From Pyrinomonadaceae bacterium (GTDB lineage Bacteria > Acidobacteriota > Blastocatellia > Pyrinomonadales > Pyrinomonadaceae): a stretch of 64,000 bases of DNA. Where the stretch lies: positions 1-64,000 of the forward strand of contig JAVEDP010000021.1 in the NCBI GenBank assembly GCA_030841085.1, read 5' to 3'. The notes beneath the pieces were generated by a model. The model made no database searches and was not told the origin of the DNA. It saw only the letters and a program-made list of their open reading frames with translations. Within the stretch, counting starts at the first letter, position 1; every line of letters begins with the position of its first letter. Of this stretch, positions 5,676 through 53,222 are shown piece after piece. A program made the translations under genes and the position numbers.

Positions 5676-5775
5676 GGGATCTTGCTCTCTCTCATGTTGT
5701 TTAGCTGGAACTTAGGAATTAAACCATAACGCACGCAGGAAACTTAAATCCTCAATCTGCGATTTTATGGCGTAC

Positions 5776-5791
5776 GCGCTCATTGCGGGCG
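5776..5791. repeat. Fragment of the 2907-3055 inverted repeat
   Basis: GCGCTCATTGCGGGCG at 5776-5791 matches the inner part of the right arm at 3021-3036 exactly. It stands alone in the gap between divergent genes and looks like the remnant of a decayed copy. Confidence 0.5.
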
Positions 5792-5872
5792 TGCAGTAAA
5801 CGATTGACTTAAGGGTCAGTTTTGCAATAGAAGCTGTCTGCTCTTCTAACTCCTTCCCGGTGAGTGTGGCCC

Positions 5873-6499
5873 ATGAAACAGATTCCGACCATTCTTGTGC
5901 TTGGCTTTGCGTTGTCGTTATGCAACCTCGGTAACAAACTAAAAACTTCCAATTCGGGCGGCTCCGGCTCGGAAAAGTCTTCGTCGAGTTCCAGCGGTGA
6001 AGCTGAGAAAGGAACGCCGACCGCCGCGCAAACTCAAGCGCTGGCCGGTGGTAAGGAAGTTAAGTGGGACCGGCAGGGGATGTCATGGACAGCACCGCCA
6101 AACTGGAAGCAAGACAGCAGCGAATTCCAAGAGCTTGTTTGGAGCTCACCTGGCGGGGATGAAGCTGCGCACTTGATAGTCAGCATCTCGCCGATGGATG
6201 ACAGTTTTCCTACCGACTCAGCCATCCAAGCGTCTTACGACCAGGCGCAAACGCGCATGAAGCATTTTGAGGTTGATGAGGTAAAGTGGGTGGAAATTGA
6301 CGGTTTGAAAGGCGTGCAGTTTCGCGAATCAAATCCGGAGAAGCCTGATGGCTTTCGCAGACTACAGTGGCTTGCCTACCGAAAATATGCAGGGCAAGTG
6401 CAGGGGATCAATATCATGCTGTCGAGTAACGGCAGCGGCTTCCCCAAACATCAGGACGAGATGTACGGCGTGCTTTACTCGACGAAGGTGGCGCACTGA
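5873..6499 (+). CDS. Putative lipoprotein, unknown function
   Basis: The product of 208 residues has a lipoprotein signal ending in ALSLC (Cys near residue 18). A Gly/Ser linker (residues about 28-46) leads to a soluble domain beginning WDRQGMSWTAPPNWK. The domain resembles DcrB/PsbP-type alpha-beta modules (LVWSSPGG, VKWVEIDGLKGVQFRES), but this is a weak resemblance without catalytic residues. ATG 5873 is preferred to GTG 5864 because it puts the charged residue directly before the hydrophobic core. The stop codon at 6497-6499 overlaps the left arm of a repeat of the AGTCTGTG family. Confidence 0.7.
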   Translation: MKQIPTILVLGFALSLCNLGNKLKTSNSGGSGSEKSSSSSSGEAEKGTPTAAQTQALAGGKEVKWDRQGMSWTAPPNWKQDSSEFQELVWSSPGGDEAAHLIVSISPMDDSFPTDSAIQASYDQAQTRMKHFEVDEVKWVEIDGLKGVQFRESNPEKPDGFRRLQWLAYRKYAGQVQGINIMLSSNGSGFPKHQDEMYGVLYSTKVAH

Positions 6500-47725: not shown

Positions 47726-49549
47726 CTATTGTCCCGTTTGTACTGCCTGGGCCTGCGGCAACAACGTGCTGCGCCGTCGTGCCAACTCAAGACGCTCAGT
47801 CGAAAGTTTGTCCAGCAGCTCGTTGGCGCCGTTGCGCTCCGCCGCCGCCATCTCTGCCATCAAATCGCTGATGCGCCTGTCGACTTGCATCAGGCGCAGA
47901 GCATCAATGCATTTTTGCGCACTCGACTCGCGTGTCTCTGTCTGTTCCGTCTCTGCATCGTCCGTCGTACTCATCAACAGCGCCGGCAAAAAGTCAGCGA
48001 TCGGATCTCCTTCGGTGCTCTTGCTCAGAAAATCAAAATCAACTTCCTTTCCCGATCGTTCACTCTCGATCAAGGCTCGGAAGATAGCGGCAGTCGGCAG
48101 GTCATCGTAGTCTGCCGGCTCCATGCGGGGAAGAAATTTGTGACGCAGATTTTCATCCGCAAGCAACAGTTCCAACAGCTGCTCTTCCGCAACCGTCGGC
48201 TTGACCTGAGTCCGCTTGCCGATATTCTGCTGGGTGCGCGCACTGTCTGGTCCAAGCCTCAACGAATGCCACAACTCGCGCCGCAGTGCCAAGTCTGAAA
48301 TTCGCAGCGAGTCCATCGCAATGTCAAAATACTCGCGCTTCTGAATGCGGCTATGAACAGCGCGAATGTAAGGAAGCACTTCCTCGACAGCATCAGCTTT
48401 CTCAGCCGGCCGATGAAGATTCCGATTACGCACGGCCTGATCGATCACAAATTGAATATGTGATTGGGCCTCGGCGCGCTGCCGTTGATATTCAGTCAGG
48501 CCAAACTTTCTCAGGAACTCATCCGGATCGGCATCGTCCGGAAGCACCAACACCTTCACTTCCAAATCTTGCGCCAGGAGTATTTCGATCGCTTTTTTTG
48601 CTGCCTGGACCCCAGCGGAATCGCCATCATAATTAACGACAACTTTCCCGGCAAACCGCGCTAACAATTTCGCCTGATCTGACGTTAGCGCCGTTCCCAA
48701 ACTCGCCACCACGTTCCGAATACCGAACTGGTAAGGCACGACAAGATCCAAAAAACCCTCAACCAGAATTGCGAAACCCTGGCGCCGGATCTCCTCGCGC
48801 GTCAGGTTTAGTCCAAACAGGTTTCGACCTTTTACATAGGCTGAGGTTTCCGGGGAGTTGATGTATTTCGCATCTTCATCTTTCAGCGTACGCCCGCCGA
48901 AAGCGATGGGCCGTCCCTGAATATCCATTACCGGAAAAATTAGCCGGCCGCGGAAACGATCGTAAGAACCACCTTCTTCTTTTTTCACGACCAGACCGCT
49001 CTTGTCGATCTGTTCCTGCGAAGCACCCTTCTGCCGCAAGTAAATCGAGAGCGCATCCCAACTGTCAGGCGCGTAAGCAAGGCGAAATGTTTGTCGTGTT
49101 TCGTCGGTGATTTCGCGGCGCTTGAGATAGTCGCGCGCGATCCTGGCTTCGGCGCTCGACTCGAGCTGTTTTTCCCACCATTCGAGCGCCCATTTGTTTA
49201 ATTCAATAACCTGATCCGATTCCGCCTTCTTCGCTTCGAAGCGGCTGTCGTCGATCAATTTGGGCAGCGGCATGCCGCTTTTCTCGGCAACGATCTTAAT
49301 CGCTTCCGGAAACGCGACGCGTTCCATCTCCATCACAAAGTTGAAGACCGATCCGCCCTTATGACAACCAAAACAATAAAAAATTTCCTTGGCGGGACTG
49401 ACGGAAAACGAGGGTGTCTTTTCTTTATGAAAGGGACAGCAAGCCATCCAGTTTGCGCCCTTCTTCTTTAGCTGGACGTAATCCTGGACGACGCGAACGA
49501 TGTCGGCCTGGCGCTTGAGATCGTCAATGAATGTTTGGGGGTAGCGCAT
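47726..49549 (-). CDS. dnaG: DNA primase
   Basis: It makes RNA primers for replication with DnaB. The 607-residue protein has the CHC2 zinc finger at about 36-66 (MACCPFHKEKTPSFSVSPAK, then YCFGCHKGGS). The catalytic core includes YLKRREITDETRQTFRLAYA and the TOPRIM motifs ILVEGFLDLVVPYQFG and VVNYDGDSAGVQAAKKA. A C-terminal helicase-binding region spans about 440-600. ATG 49549 overlaps the stop of the DUF433 gene (TAATG), so the small gene and primase are translationally coupled. rpoD follows. Normal length and complete active site. Confidence 0.96.
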   Translation of the reverse strand: MRYPQTFIDDLKRQADIVRVVQDYVQLKKKGANWMACCPFHKEKTPSFSVSPAKEIFYCFGCHKGGSVFNFVMEMERVAFPEAIKIVAEKSGMPLPKLIDDSRFEAKKAESDQVIELNKWALEWWEKQLESSAEARIARDYLKRREITDETRQTFRLAYAPDSWDALSIYLRQKGASQEQIDKSGLVVKKEEGGSYDRFRGRLIFPVMDIQGRPIAFGGRTLKDEDAKYINSPETSAYVKGRNLFGLNLTREEIRRQGFAILVEGFLDLVVPYQFGIRNVVASLGTALTSDQAKLLARFAGKVVVNYDGDSAGVQAAKKAIEILLAQDLEVKVLVLPDDADPDEFLRKFGLTEYQRQRAEAQSHIQFVIDQAVRNRNLHRPAEKADAVEEVLPYIRAVHSRIQKREYFDIAMDSLRISDLALRRELWHSLRLGPDSARTQQNIGKRTQVKPTVAEEQLLELLLADENLRHKFLPRMEPADYDDLPTAAIFRALIESERSGKEVDFDFLSKSTEGDPIADFLPALLMSTTDDAETEQTETRESSAQKCIDALRLMQVDRRISDLMAEMAAAERNGANELLDKLSTERLELARRRSTLLPQAQAVQTGQ

Positions 49550-49770
49550 TACGGAGCGTAGGCGACTGCGGCCTGAACATCTTTCTCAGTCAGCGGTGGA
49601 TAGTGCTCAATAATCTGTTCCGGAGTGAGGCCTTCCACGAGAGAGTCAAGGATTACCGCGACGTGAATTCGCGTACCTCGAATACAAGGTTCACCACCAC
49701 AGACTTTGGGATCGCTCACCACGCGTTTAAGCAGCTTGTTATAGGCATCATCAGTCATGGCCGAACTCAC
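49549..49770 (-). CDS. DUF433 small protein coupled to dnaG
   Basis: The product of 73 residues (or 69 from ATG 49758) is a DUF433 domain: VSDPKVCGGEPCIRGTRIHV, then LDSLVEGLTPEQIIEHYPPL and KDVQAAVAYA. DUF433 is a winged-helix-like DNA-binding module found in VapB/antitoxin-like proteins, often paired with a PIN toxin (DUF5615). No toxin gene is visible here. Its stop shares a base with the dnaG start, so its main effect may be on dnaG translation, or it is an orphan left from a lost toxin pair. Confidence 0.88.
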   Translation of the reverse strand: MSSAMTDDAYNKLLKRVVSDPKVCGGEPCIRGTRIHVAVILDSLVEGLTPEQIIEHYPPLTEKDVQAAVAYAP

Positions 49771-49877
49771 TTAAAATAATCTTACTCTAACCAAAGCACG
49801 TGCGCACAATATTCGCCTGGCGCTTCAGAAGTCGGAATATTTGGGGCTTAAACATCTTTCGAGACGAATGAAGAAAA

Positions 49878-50660
49878 CTATAAAAGATCGTAAGGCGTAA
49901 GAATACCAATCAATCGGTTAGAACTGGATTCGACCAGAATTGGAATGCCATCCCAGTCCTTAAGAACATCTTTCACCAGAGCGGTCCCTTTATACCGTTT
50001 TGGCTCGCAGCACTTGATTTGGTCGGAATCAATGAGATCACCAAGAGATTCCGCAAGACGCTTTTCACAGAGCTGAGATTCTTGTCTTAAATAGTGAGCG
50101 AGTGCCATATCGCTAATGAGCCCTACCGCCTCATCGTTGTAGCCAGACAACACTGGAAGATATGAAAACGAATTTACTAACATAGTCTGTCTGACAAAAC
50201 TCAGGGGTTGCCAAGAGAAGCAACAAATCGGGTTTCTCACCATGTAATCGCTGATTTGATCACAGTCGCGCATCAGAGCATCCTCCAAAGTAATCGACAA
50301 CTCAATTGCATGAACTGTCAGATGACGCGCAAAGGCGCCCTCGTGCATCGCATCATTTCTAGCTTCCCTTACCAATCGATGAAGGGTCTCAAAAGACGTG
50401 TGTAAATCGGAGAACCCTGATGGTATTTTGATCGCCAAGGGTGAATCTTCAGCTAACTTAATATTATGCTCTTCTTTGTGAGCGAGTCCCGATGGTGGCG
50501 TCTTTCCTTTTTTTCTAACAGAGCAATCCTGGTTACAAAGATAACCACCAAGGCGCTCAAGCACGAAAACAATTTCGTGAAAAGCTTCGGCGTCTCGCAA
50601 TGCAAGTGCTCGCGCTTCACGCAGCTGATCTCGAAAGTACAACGTGGTATCAGCGTTCAT
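49878..50660 (-). CDS. CBS-pair protein with HEPN-like N-terminal helical domain
   Basis: The 260-residue product has a helical region at residues 1-130 with RNDAMH at 101-106 in the segment LVREARNDAMHEGAFARHL. This fits the Rx4-6H motif of HEPN ribonucleases, and helices around it (MNADTTLYFRDQLREARALA; HAIELSITLEDALM) fit a HEPN fold. Residues 135-260 are a CBS pair (QISDYMVRNPICCFSWQPLS; LIDSDQIKCCEPKRYKGTAL; ILVESSSNRLIGILTPYDLL). That suggests a ligand-gated ribonuclease, which is inference. It lies 18 bases downstream of mutS2 and is probably co-transcribed. Its base and amino-acid use differ somewhat from neighbours (more Cys, Ser, Tyr). Confidence 0.7.
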   Translation of the reverse strand: MNADTTLYFRDQLREARALALRDAEAFHEIVFVLERLGGYLCNQDCSVRKKGKTPPSGLAHKEEHNIKLAEDSPLAIKIPSGFSDLHTSFETLHRLVREARNDAMHEGAFARHLTVHAIELSITLEDALMRDCDQISDYMVRNPICCFSWQPLSFVRQTMLVNSFSYLPVLSGYNDEAVGLISDMALAHYLRQESQLCEKRLAESLGDLIDSDQIKCCEPKRYKGTALVKDVLKDWDGIPILVESSSNRLIGILTPYDLL

Positions 50661-50678
50661 CAGTGCTTGCTCAACCTA

Positions 50679-53222
50679 TTACTGTCTTAACTCGACGAGC
50701 GTTGCTCCGGATCCACCTTGCTCCTGCGGCGCGGCGGTGAAGCGCGCGACGTGCGGATGATCTTTCAGCAATTCCGTGATTACGCGGCGCAGAGCGCCCG
50801 TGCCGTGCCCGTGAATTATCCGCACCTGGCTCAAACTTGCAAGCGAAGCTTCGTCCAAAAATTTATCAACCGCATCAACCGCTTCGTCCGTAGTTCGCCC
50901 AATGACGTTGAGCTCTGAGCGGCCGTTTTCCTGCGCCGCTTTTAGGTGTAGTTCAGTGCCGGCCGACTGGCGCAGGCTCGCAAACTTTTCGGTTTTCGAT
51001 TTCGCCGGCGATGAGAGCTCGACGCGTTCAAGATTCTCCAGCTTCTCGCGGAAGCGAAGAGACTTCACGCGCACTTCCGCTTCGTCACCTTTAAGACTGT
51101 CGACAATTCCTATCGAACCAAACGAACGCAGCTTCACTTTGTCGCCCACCGCAATTTGGCCCTGCGCCGCCGGCTTATATTCGTCTTCGGTAGTAGGAAC
51201 TTCCTCAAACTCTTTCTCTTTTTTAACGACCAGACCATCGCGCATTACACGCACGCCGCGCCCGCTGGTGCTGGCTGCTGCACCAGACAACGCTTCCCTT
51301 TTGTCGCCCGCACTGGTCGCGCGTTGGGCTTCGCGCTTCAATTCCGATACGCGCCGCTGGGCCTCACGGTCGACCTTTAAACGCTCCGAGCGATCCTGGA
51401 TGGTGGCGACGAACTCGCGCGACCGCTTTTCAAATTCGCGAACGGTTGTATCCAAAGCCTTTTGAAAAACTTCCTGCCGCTCGCGCTCATGCCGTTCAGC
51501 TGTTTTGTCGAGCGTGGCAAATTTTTCAGCCACCGCCGCGCGCTCTTCTTCGAGCGCCGCGCGTAAACTTTCTGCCTCTTCCGCCTCGCGTTTGATACGG
51601 CGCAAATACTCGACTGCCTGGCGCGTCGCATCTTTCACTGACTCCAAAGCCAAATCAATAACCTTATTCGGAATACCAAAACGCCGCGCAATCTCGAGTC
51701 CTGAAGATGAACCCGCAACACCGACTATCAAACGATACGTGGGCTGCAACGTCTTTTCGTCAAACTCAACGCTCGCGTTCAGCACACCCGCCTCGTTGCC
51801 GGCATACATTTTCAAGCCGCTGTAATGTGTGGTCGCCATTACCTGCGCGCCACAAGCTTTGCGAAAATGATCGACGACGGCGACACCGAGCGCGGATCCT
51901 TCTTCGGGATCAGTTCCAGTTCCGACTTCATCCAACAGAACGAGCGCAGGTGCTTTGCACAGTCCAATCATGCGCGAAATGTTGGCGATATGCGATGTGA
52001 AGGTTGAAAGGTTTGCGGCCAACGATTGATGGTCGCCGATGTCCGCCAGCACCGAGCGGTAGAACGGTACTCGCGCTTCGCGTGCAGGCACAGCCAAACC
52101 GGACAGCGCCATCAACGAAAGCAGTCCCGCAGTTTTTAGGACGACCGTTTTGCCGCCGGCATTGGCGCCGGAAATGACCATGGTGTTGTTTTCGTCATCG
52201 AGAGAAAACGAAACCGGGACAACGGCGCCGCCCACTGCGCGGAGATTTTCTTCAAGTAAGGGATGACGCGCGTCGGCAAGTAAAAGTTTTGAAGTGGCTT
52301 GGTCTCTAGCCTGCGAAGCACCGACTGAAGTCTGTGCTACTTCGATCTCCGGAATCACACAAGCAAACCTTTGCTGAAAGATTGCTTTCGCGTTTATGAA
52401 ATCAAGCTCGGTGATCGCTGTCGCGGCTGCCGCAATTCCCGGGAGCTGGGCTCGCAGTTCTTCCGTCAGCGCAAACAGAATTTTCGCAATCTCGCGCGCT
52501 TCTTCTTCATGCAGCGCCTGCAGTTCGTTGTTTGCGTCAATGGTTTCCAGCGGCTCGACGAAAGCGGTCGCCCCCGAAGAGGAATAACCATGGGCGACGC
52601 CGGCCACGCGCGCGCGATGATCGGATTTGACCGGGATGACAAAGCGATCGTTGCGCAACGTCACCAGTTCATCCTGAATTGCCTCGCCAGACCGGCGCAT
52701 CACGTTTTCCAGCGTGCGCGCGATGCGTGAACGCAGGATCGTAATCTCATGCCGGATGCGACTCAACTCAGGACTGGCGCGATCGTCTATTTCGCCACTC
52801 GGCAAAATCTTGTTGGCGATATGCGCGTTGAGGCGGTTTAACTCAGTAGGGATTTTCTCGACCAGAGTCCAGAGCACTGGCGAGGCATCGCGTTCAGCGA
52901 GAATTGAAGCCCGCGCGGACATCGCCTGTTCGCACAAAACGGAAAGCGCGAGTATCGCCGACGGCTCAAGCCCAACGCCTTCTATTCGCAATAAAGCAAT
53001 TCGTTGCGCCGGATCTTCCAGCTCGCTGAAGGTCCAGACCACGCCGCGTTTTCTAAGTTGAATGCATTCCGTTAAAGCTTCCAGAGCTTTCCGCAGTAAC
53101 GCGATATCGTCTAGCGGGCTCAATGCTTCCGCACGCGCCCTGCCCATCGGCGTTTGCGCACCGCGTTTGACCAGCGCCAGCAGCGCTGGATACTCCAGAA
53201 TGGTGAATGCTTGATCGTGCAT
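50679..53222 (-). CDS. mutS2: MutS2 family ATPase/endonuclease
   Basis: MutS2 proteins act on branched recombination intermediates or on stalled ribosomes, depending on the species. The 847-residue protein has the N-terminal core/lever region (residues about 1-310), the ABC ATPase with Walker A GANAGGKTVVLKTAGLLSLM and Walker B LVLLDEVGTGTDPEEGSAL, a long coiled-coil and KOW-like linker, and a C-terminal Smr nuclease domain (VRIIHGHGTGALRRVITELL). It is 50-60 residues longer than the usual 780-790. Part of the excess is a short in-frame segment near residues 294-303 that comes from a dispersed repeat (see 52314-52343). ATG 53222. Confidence 0.95.
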   Translation of the reverse strand: MHDQAFTILEYPALLALVKRGAQTPMGRARAEALSPLDDIALLRKALEALTECIQLRKRGVVWTFSELEDPAQRIALLRIEGVGLEPSAILALSVLCEQAMSARASILAERDASPVLWTLVEKIPTELNRLNAHIANKILPSGEIDDRASPELSRIRHEITILRSRIARTLENVMRRSGEAIQDELVTLRNDRFVIPVKSDHRARVAGVAHGYSSSGATAFVEPLETIDANNELQALHEEEAREIAKILFALTEELRAQLPGIAAAATAITELDFINAKAIFQQRFACVIPEIEVAQTSVGASQARDQATSKLLLADARHPLLEENLRAVGGAVVPVSFSLDDENNTMVISGANAGGKTVVLKTAGLLSLMALSGLAVPAREARVPFYRSVLADIGDHQSLAANLSTFTSHIANISRMIGLCKAPALVLLDEVGTGTDPEEGSALGVAVVDHFRKACGAQVMATTHYSGLKMYAGNEAGVLNASVEFDEKTLQPTYRLIVGVAGSSSGLEIARRFGIPNKVIDLALESVKDATRQAVEYLRRIKREAEEAESLRAALEEERAAVAEKFATLDKTAERHERERQEVFQKALDTTVREFEKRSREFVATIQDRSERLKVDREAQRRVSELKREAQRATSAGDKREALSGAAASTSGRGVRVMRDGLVVKKEKEFEEVPTTEDEYKPAAQGQIAVGDKVKLRSFGSIGIVDSLKGDEAEVRVKSLRFREKLENLERVELSSPAKSKTEKFASLRQSAGTELHLKAAQENGRSELNVIGRTTDEAVDAVDKFLDEASLASLSQVRIIHGHGTGALRRVITELLKDHPHVARFTAAPQEQGGSGATLVELRQ
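52314..52343. repeat. Single repeat unit (GTAGCACAGACTTCAGTC family) inside mutS2
   Basis: Read on the minus strand the stretch GAAGTAGCACAGACTTCAGT, then CGGTGCTTCG, matches the intergenic unit at 6498-6527 except at two positions. It is in frame in mutS2, coding for EVAQTSVGAS, and does not introduce a stop. It is the only copy of this family in the window that is inside a gene. Confidence 0.7.

Follow-up and report, generated by a model that had tools for sequence, protein, structure and literature searches.

What is the function of a gene that combines a putative ribonuclease motif with a nucleotide-binding domain and resides between mutS2 and dnaG? The window, a stretch of 64,000 nucleotides from a Pyrinomonadaceae bacterium, harbors a gene of this kind on the minus strand (49878..50660), an open reading frame of 260 aa with an ATG start and a TAG stop, which proved to be real and to belong to a family of 16 aligned members. 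The sequence-only reading had described its product as a possible ligand-gated ribonuclease comprising a helical N-terminal domain with the HEPN-type motif RNDAMH and a C-terminal CBS pair, and had linked the gene to information processing by virtue of its neighbors. The motif was indeed located at residues 101-106 (50343..50360, minus strand), followed by the CBS pair at residues 133-260 (49881..50264, minus strand). The neighbors are also placed as had been described, with genes that we take to be mutS2, a DUF433-like gene and dnaG from recognition of their sequences. We interpret the HEPN-CBS gene as a horizontally acquired, single-gene, nucleotide-gated HEPN RNase, which probably acts in abortive anti-phage defence, and assign to this interpretation a probability of roughly 0.6. 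Of the initial proposal, the gated ribonuclease is supported by the conserved R/H pair (16/16 homologues), the predicted helices and the CBS pair; the connection to information processing found no support.

Taken by itself, the RNDAMH motif is weak and near chance level. Out of 52 stop-to-stop ORFs of at least 200 aa in this window, 41 exhibited an Rx4-6H pattern and six the pattern R[NDH]xxxH. The motif is lifted above chance because it is conserved across homologues. We aligned 16 of these, whose pairwise identity ranges from 25 to 73% and which were obtained from GTDB contigs (2), plasmids (14 records), IMG/VR (4 loci) and whole-genome searches; three further copies, all containing RND-x-x-H, and five plasmid records are not part of this count of 16. 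Conservation of R101 and H106 had been set beforehand as a check, and both residues were found in all aligned homologues at the spacing R101-x4-H106, which fits Rx4-6H. Within the N-terminal part, the residues R14, R17, E25, E35, R101, N102, D103, H106, G108, A111, R112 and E126 are identical in 16/16 sequences. Seven of the twelve invariant columns of residues 1-132 fall within residues 101-112 (hypergeometric P 4e-6, kinship ignored). Two candidates were rejected during the collection of homologues. A single locus retrieved by searching DNA for a degenerate version of the motif was spurious, a slightly relaxed pattern missing the window itself, and G833 was dropped from the family as a CBS-only protein.

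Genes located next to the homologues give hints on the role of the family. A restriction- or defence-type gene directly adjoins HEPN-CBS in five of the 16 aligned loci. In Deinococcus QL22 (L009) the gene overlaps hsdR. In G207, which belongs to the same family as the organism of the window, a type III mod gene is situated 20 nt upstream, and GmrSD-type and res genes as well as an integrase lie further on (L013/L025). In L028 HEPN-CBS is flanked by a PD-Lambda-3_A-like gene on one side and an HNH gene on the other, while in L034, a locus within a prophage, an Mrr-type gene follows 10 nt downstream and then HSDR_N. The fifth case (L006) is weak, since the phospholipase-D-type neighbor disclosed only a weak DrmC match. 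At a sixth locus (L033) an HSDR_N gene resides a few genes away. The remaining ten aligned loci revealed no defence gene beyond weak matches; the window is one of these ten, and no defence gene was recognised beside its copy. For these analyses PADLOC was given twenty selected neighbors; the window protein itself obtained no PADLOC match. No match to it was found in phage records either, and the best PHROGs hit (E 0.04) was a match without function. According to an earlier study (PMC9122126), defence genes are known to be carried at prophage cargo sites.

The same ribonuclease might instead stabilize plasmids or other elements or cause dormancy under stress, similar to a toxin. In accordance with such a role, many members were found on large plasmids, a result that we do not count as enrichment because plasmid or viral membership reflects the places searched (a plasmid collection among them). 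HipA-family genes are located near L006, the DUF433-like gene adjoins the window copy, and PIN/antitoxin-like genes occupy the same junction in two relatives (G014 and G016). Against it stand the several members inside restriction-modification loci and the lack of a conserved antitoxin partner. No conserved partner gene of any kind was seen at the homologue loci, and for this reason HEPN-CBS is likely self-contained. We consider the toxin-like role rather unlikely and, with modest confidence, prefer anti-phage defence to any other role.

Some further peculiarities of the homologue loci are mentioned here. Downstream of HEPN-CBS in L033 (by 23 nt), positions 5765-6496 encode a 243-aa protein without a Pfam match that contains RNDFVH and may be a second HEPN-type protein. 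Two diverged HEPN-CBS copies lie approximately 4 kb apart on the plasmid p86s5p of Burkholderia glumae (L008; 58860-59636 and 54605-55384 of the record), and the genome G338 likewise possesses two copies. In the restriction element of G207, a 366-aa gene downstream of HEPN-CBS (L025, 7492-8592) gave neither a Pfam nor a PADLOC match. Directly upstream of HEPN-CBS in L003 (2185-4836), a Sel1-repeat-like protein with a protease-type C-terminus is encoded. According to the HEPN survey (PMC3710099), Sel1-repeat genes occur beside the HEPN family AbiU2.

The N-terminal domain (residues 3-129; 50274..50654, minus strand) was studied by means of structure prediction. When the window protein was folded alone, AlphaFold2 produced a useless model (pLDDT 34), whereas with seven sequences a confident full-length model with a mean pLDDT of 83.5 and a pTM of 0.75 was obtained. 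The model predicts main helices at residues 3-22, 24-44, 90-107 and 112-129. After helix 24-44 an insert (45-89) is present, which includes short helices between residues 46 and 77 and has pLDDT values below 50 at 79-85. Residues 101-106 lie at the end of helix 90-107, the third main helix of the model, and the domain around the motif is predicted to be helical, as had been postulated. According to the HEPN survey (PMC3710099), Rx4-6H lies where helix 3 ends or where the loop to helix 4 starts. The residue after R is described there as polar, mostly N, D or H; many families have a conserved acid in helix 2, and helices 2 and 3 are frequently separated by a variable insert. For this acid, the survey gives the form Ex3[KR] as typical in many families without being defining. 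As far as the model allows, the window protein matches this description in the place of the motif, the polar residue (N102 in 16/16), the acidic residues of helix 2 (E25 and E35, both within helix 24-44, in 16/16) and the insert. It deviates in Ex3[KR], as K or R occupies position 39 in 4/16 and position 29 in 0/16 sequences.

The profile evidence for this domain is weak. None of the 14 family members scanned matched a HEPN profile above the cut-off. The best result was PF18735 in a single member (E 0.0038; 17.6 versus a cut-off of 28.4 bits), and the same member weakly matched DUF4145 (PF13643; E 0.021, below cut-off), presumably a HEPN-like family. Two members of the anti-phage family DS-11 (see below), which served as a control, were likewise devoid of a HEPN match in Pfam. 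Because DS-11 contains mutation-tested HEPN residues and yet escapes these profiles, a missing match says little. A profile search of the PDB with the N-terminal alignment returned coiled-coil and designed chains at E values of 0.05 or worse and no HEPN chain. In fold searches of PDB and BFVD with the full-length model, the only strong rows were CBS proteins, and the listed PDB rows were filled by the CBS pair. That no HEPN protein was among the matches listed is not evidence of absence.

One might also suppose that the domain is a non-catalytic helical sensor or adaptor attached to the CBS pair, in which RNDxxHxGxxAR serves as a structural or ligand-contact motif. The absence of a HEPN profile match above cut-off would agree with this, as would the conserved residues G108, A111, R112 and E126, which suggest a structural constraint too. 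Against it speak the weak Pfam matches of one member, the best of which include two HEPN-type families, and the invariance of R, N and H at positions listed as catalytic in the HEPN survey (PMC3710099). We judge a non-catalytic domain to be clearly unlikely, and regard the N-terminal domain with good confidence as a predicted HEPN-type RNase.

The C-terminal half was identified as a CBS pair by profile and by fold. PF00571 was the one Pfam family that recognized the window protein, at an E value of 5.1e-8 (33.6 versus a gathering threshold of 24 bits). The fold comparison by VIA-align yielded a Z score of 15.6 to 9z6r (rmsd 2.7 A over 117 residues) and Z scores of 14.9-15.5 to AcuB chains with nucleotides (AMP, ADP, ATP, Ap4A), while a profile search against PDB sequences matched the CBS pair to 9zni and MJ1225. 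Two sub-threshold NCBIfam matches, DS-11 and SpxR, also cover the CBS part. The sequence G-x-x-[ST]-x-x-D is the nucleotide-site motif of CBS domains. In the second domain (CBS2), G252, S/T255 and D/E258 are each conserved in 16/16 homologues; CBS1 of the same sequences is without [ST]-x-x-D. Since CBS2 keeps the site motif and CBS1 does not, we expect each chain to have a single functional site for an adenine nucleotide, which would be located at CBS2. Pfam match, fold (Z about 15) and CBS2 motif place the CBS pair among those that bind adenine nucleotides, as had been suggested, and we think it probable that the protein is controlled by an adenine nucleotide.

The proposed mechanism combines these elements. 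Two HEPN domains would pair and create a metal-independent active site around R101/N102/D103/H106, to which E25 and/or E35 in helix 2 may contribute. The CBS pair would form a dimer and take up an adenine nucleotide, chiefly at CBS2 (G252-x-x-T255-x-x-D258). As long as the cell is resting, this CBS dimer might keep the HEPN pair inactive, until a nucleotide whose level rises or falls upon infection switches HEPN on. Cellular RNA would then be cut and growth would stop before the phage is released.

The closest known counterpart is DS-11 (NCBIfam NF053863), a CBS domain-containing anti-phage protein tested in 2026, whose defence was abolished by mutations of HEPN catalytic residues or of CBS Y157, according to that report (PMC13092281). 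Both proteins unite in one chain a CBS pair with a HEPN-type domain whose motif reads RN[DE]-x-MH. When their full-length profiles were compared by hhalign, the alignment ran through the CBS pair (probability 89%, E 2.6e-7). They differ in their order, as HEPN is N-terminal in the window family, while in the four DS-11 members above the cut-off it is C-terminal after the CBS pair and an extra N-terminal region is present. The window protein scored only 17.9 bits against the DS-11 cut-off of 260 bits, by its CBS part only, and hhalign detected no similarity between the N-terminal domain of the window family and the C-terminal HEPN part of DS-11. Above the cut-off, DS-11 occurred in 4/299 genomes searched, in each case with the HEPN domain at the C-terminus (RNDVMH or RNEIMH). 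By analogy, HEPN-CBS in all likelihood works like DS-11 without being a member of it.

Other systems share single features with the window family. The 2013 survey by Anantharaman et al. predicted a ligand-gated HEPN-CBS architecture class and lists HEPN-CBS and HEPN-CBS-HD fusions, alr3009 and Pelobacter gi 118580987 among them (PMC3710099). Likened by this description, they follow the same predicted principle, in which nucleotide sensing by CBS controls RNA cleavage; the HD domain of the HEPN-CBS-HD type is missing in the window family. The fetched members of HEPN_RiboL-PSP (PF18735) contain RN-x-x-x-H, but neither this profile nor DUF4145 (PF13643) includes a CBS pair, and all matches to them were below cut-off. 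PrrC and RloC are anticodon nucleases, i.e., HEPN RNases of restriction loci. The window family resembles them in the HEPN-type motif and the association with restriction-modification, but lacks their ATPase part, and control would be exerted by the CBS pair instead. AcuB, DarB and CbpB share the fold of the CBS pair (AcuB and DarB with Z 14-15.5, CbpB by Foldseek), and their entries (PDB 9s4v, 9s4y, 6yj7, 6zza) are complexes with AMP, ADP, ATP, Ap4A or c-di-AMP; the matched part is without an RNase domain. A description of the N-terminal HEPN-CBS family was not found in the literature on HEPN and CBS, as far as it was within reach.

CBS domains were a novelty in anti-phage defence when the DS-11 report described them in 2026, with one tested case whose ligand is unknown (PMC13092281). 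A second CBS and HEPN family that is built differently and has an invariant putative active site could serve as an independent source in the search for the activating nucleotide. It also allows testing CBS-gated RNases as a general principle of defence. As a tentative and more far-reaching idea, a fusion of HEPN and CBS that is independent of DS-11 and reversed in its order may have given rise to a distinct family of single-gene immune RNases, spread by transfer across at least three phyla (that of the window, Pseudomonadota and Deinococcota) and gated at CBS2 by an infection-induced adenine nucleotide. If this were true, nucleotide-gated HEPN nucleases would have arisen more than once, and CBS sensing would be a general anti-phage trigger.

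The distribution of HEPN-CBS and its insertion site were investigated by comparing relatives of the organism. The gene is present in one of 59 relatives searched, the genome of the window itself, and absent from the other 58. Within the phylum of the window 2/297 genomes have it, namely that of the window and G207; for the class of G338 the count was 1/369 (G338 itself), and the phylum of G339 gave 2/398 rows, G339 itself and one CBS-only protein. The base composition of HEPN-CBS (GC 45.6%, GC3 44%) is set apart from that of rpoD, dnaG and mutS2 (53-56% and 59-60%, respectively), and its codon use lies 7.7 standard deviations off these three genes (z -7.7). In G011, the closest relative compared (mutS2 91% identical), only four bases separate the stop of mutS2 from the start of dnaG. 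In the window, the genes recognised as mutS2 (50679..53222, minus strand) and dnaG (47726..49549, minus strand) flank a segment of approximately 1.1 kb (49550..50678) that contains HEPN-CBS and the DUF433-like ORF (73 aa; 49549..49770, minus strand). The gene begins 18 nt after mutS2 on the same strand and in line with dnaG and rpoD, as would befit a native regulatory partner of a mutS2-dnaG-rpoD operon acting in information processing, but its distribution, the absence of any insert from this junction in close relatives and its alien codon use largely refute this very improbable role, and we rejected it. Instead, HEPN-CBS, which is alien in composition, is most likely horizontally acquired cargo of the mutS2-dnaG junction. 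For this real and conserved protein family the mechanism proposed at the outset is the best explanation, while its genomic meaning moves from native information processing to cargo that was acquired by transfer and is probably defensive.

Traces of the insertion are visible in the segment itself. Between HEPN-CBS and the DUF433-like ORF, local alignment disclosed a degenerate copy of the 5′-end of dnaG (49802..49846, minus strand). Its score of 43 was reached by 0/500 shuffles (largest value 34), and two control stretches stayed inside the null range of the shuffles. For comparison, mutS2 was found in 33/35 relatives and 30 loci were examined at the junction. The cargo of other relatives at this site comprises a membrane-type protein, a DUF433-like gene that is 78% identical to that of the window (congener L040) and an antitoxin/PIN-like pair in G014. 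In G016 (L052), the mutS2 stop is directly followed by a copy of the start of dnaG, 57 bases in length, and then by an antitoxin-like gene and a PIN-like remnant; all of these cargo genes were named from recognition of their sequences. The copy of the dnaG end was absent from five junctions (L051, L059, L040, L055 and L060), L040 having been compared with the dnaG of the window. Where they occur beside inserted genes, the dnaG 5′ copies suggest insertion at the dnaG start accompanied by duplication, and we read the window segment as the putative outcome of at least two successive insertions at this point. A literature search revealed no description of the mutS2-dnaG junction as an insertion hotspot. 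The scar points to this junction as a small site for cargo that can be recognised in the genus of the window and its relatives. It is empty in many close relatives and filled in some (L040, L051, L052, L059, L060), and its contents include toxin-antitoxin-like, DUF433-like, hydrolase-like and other genes.
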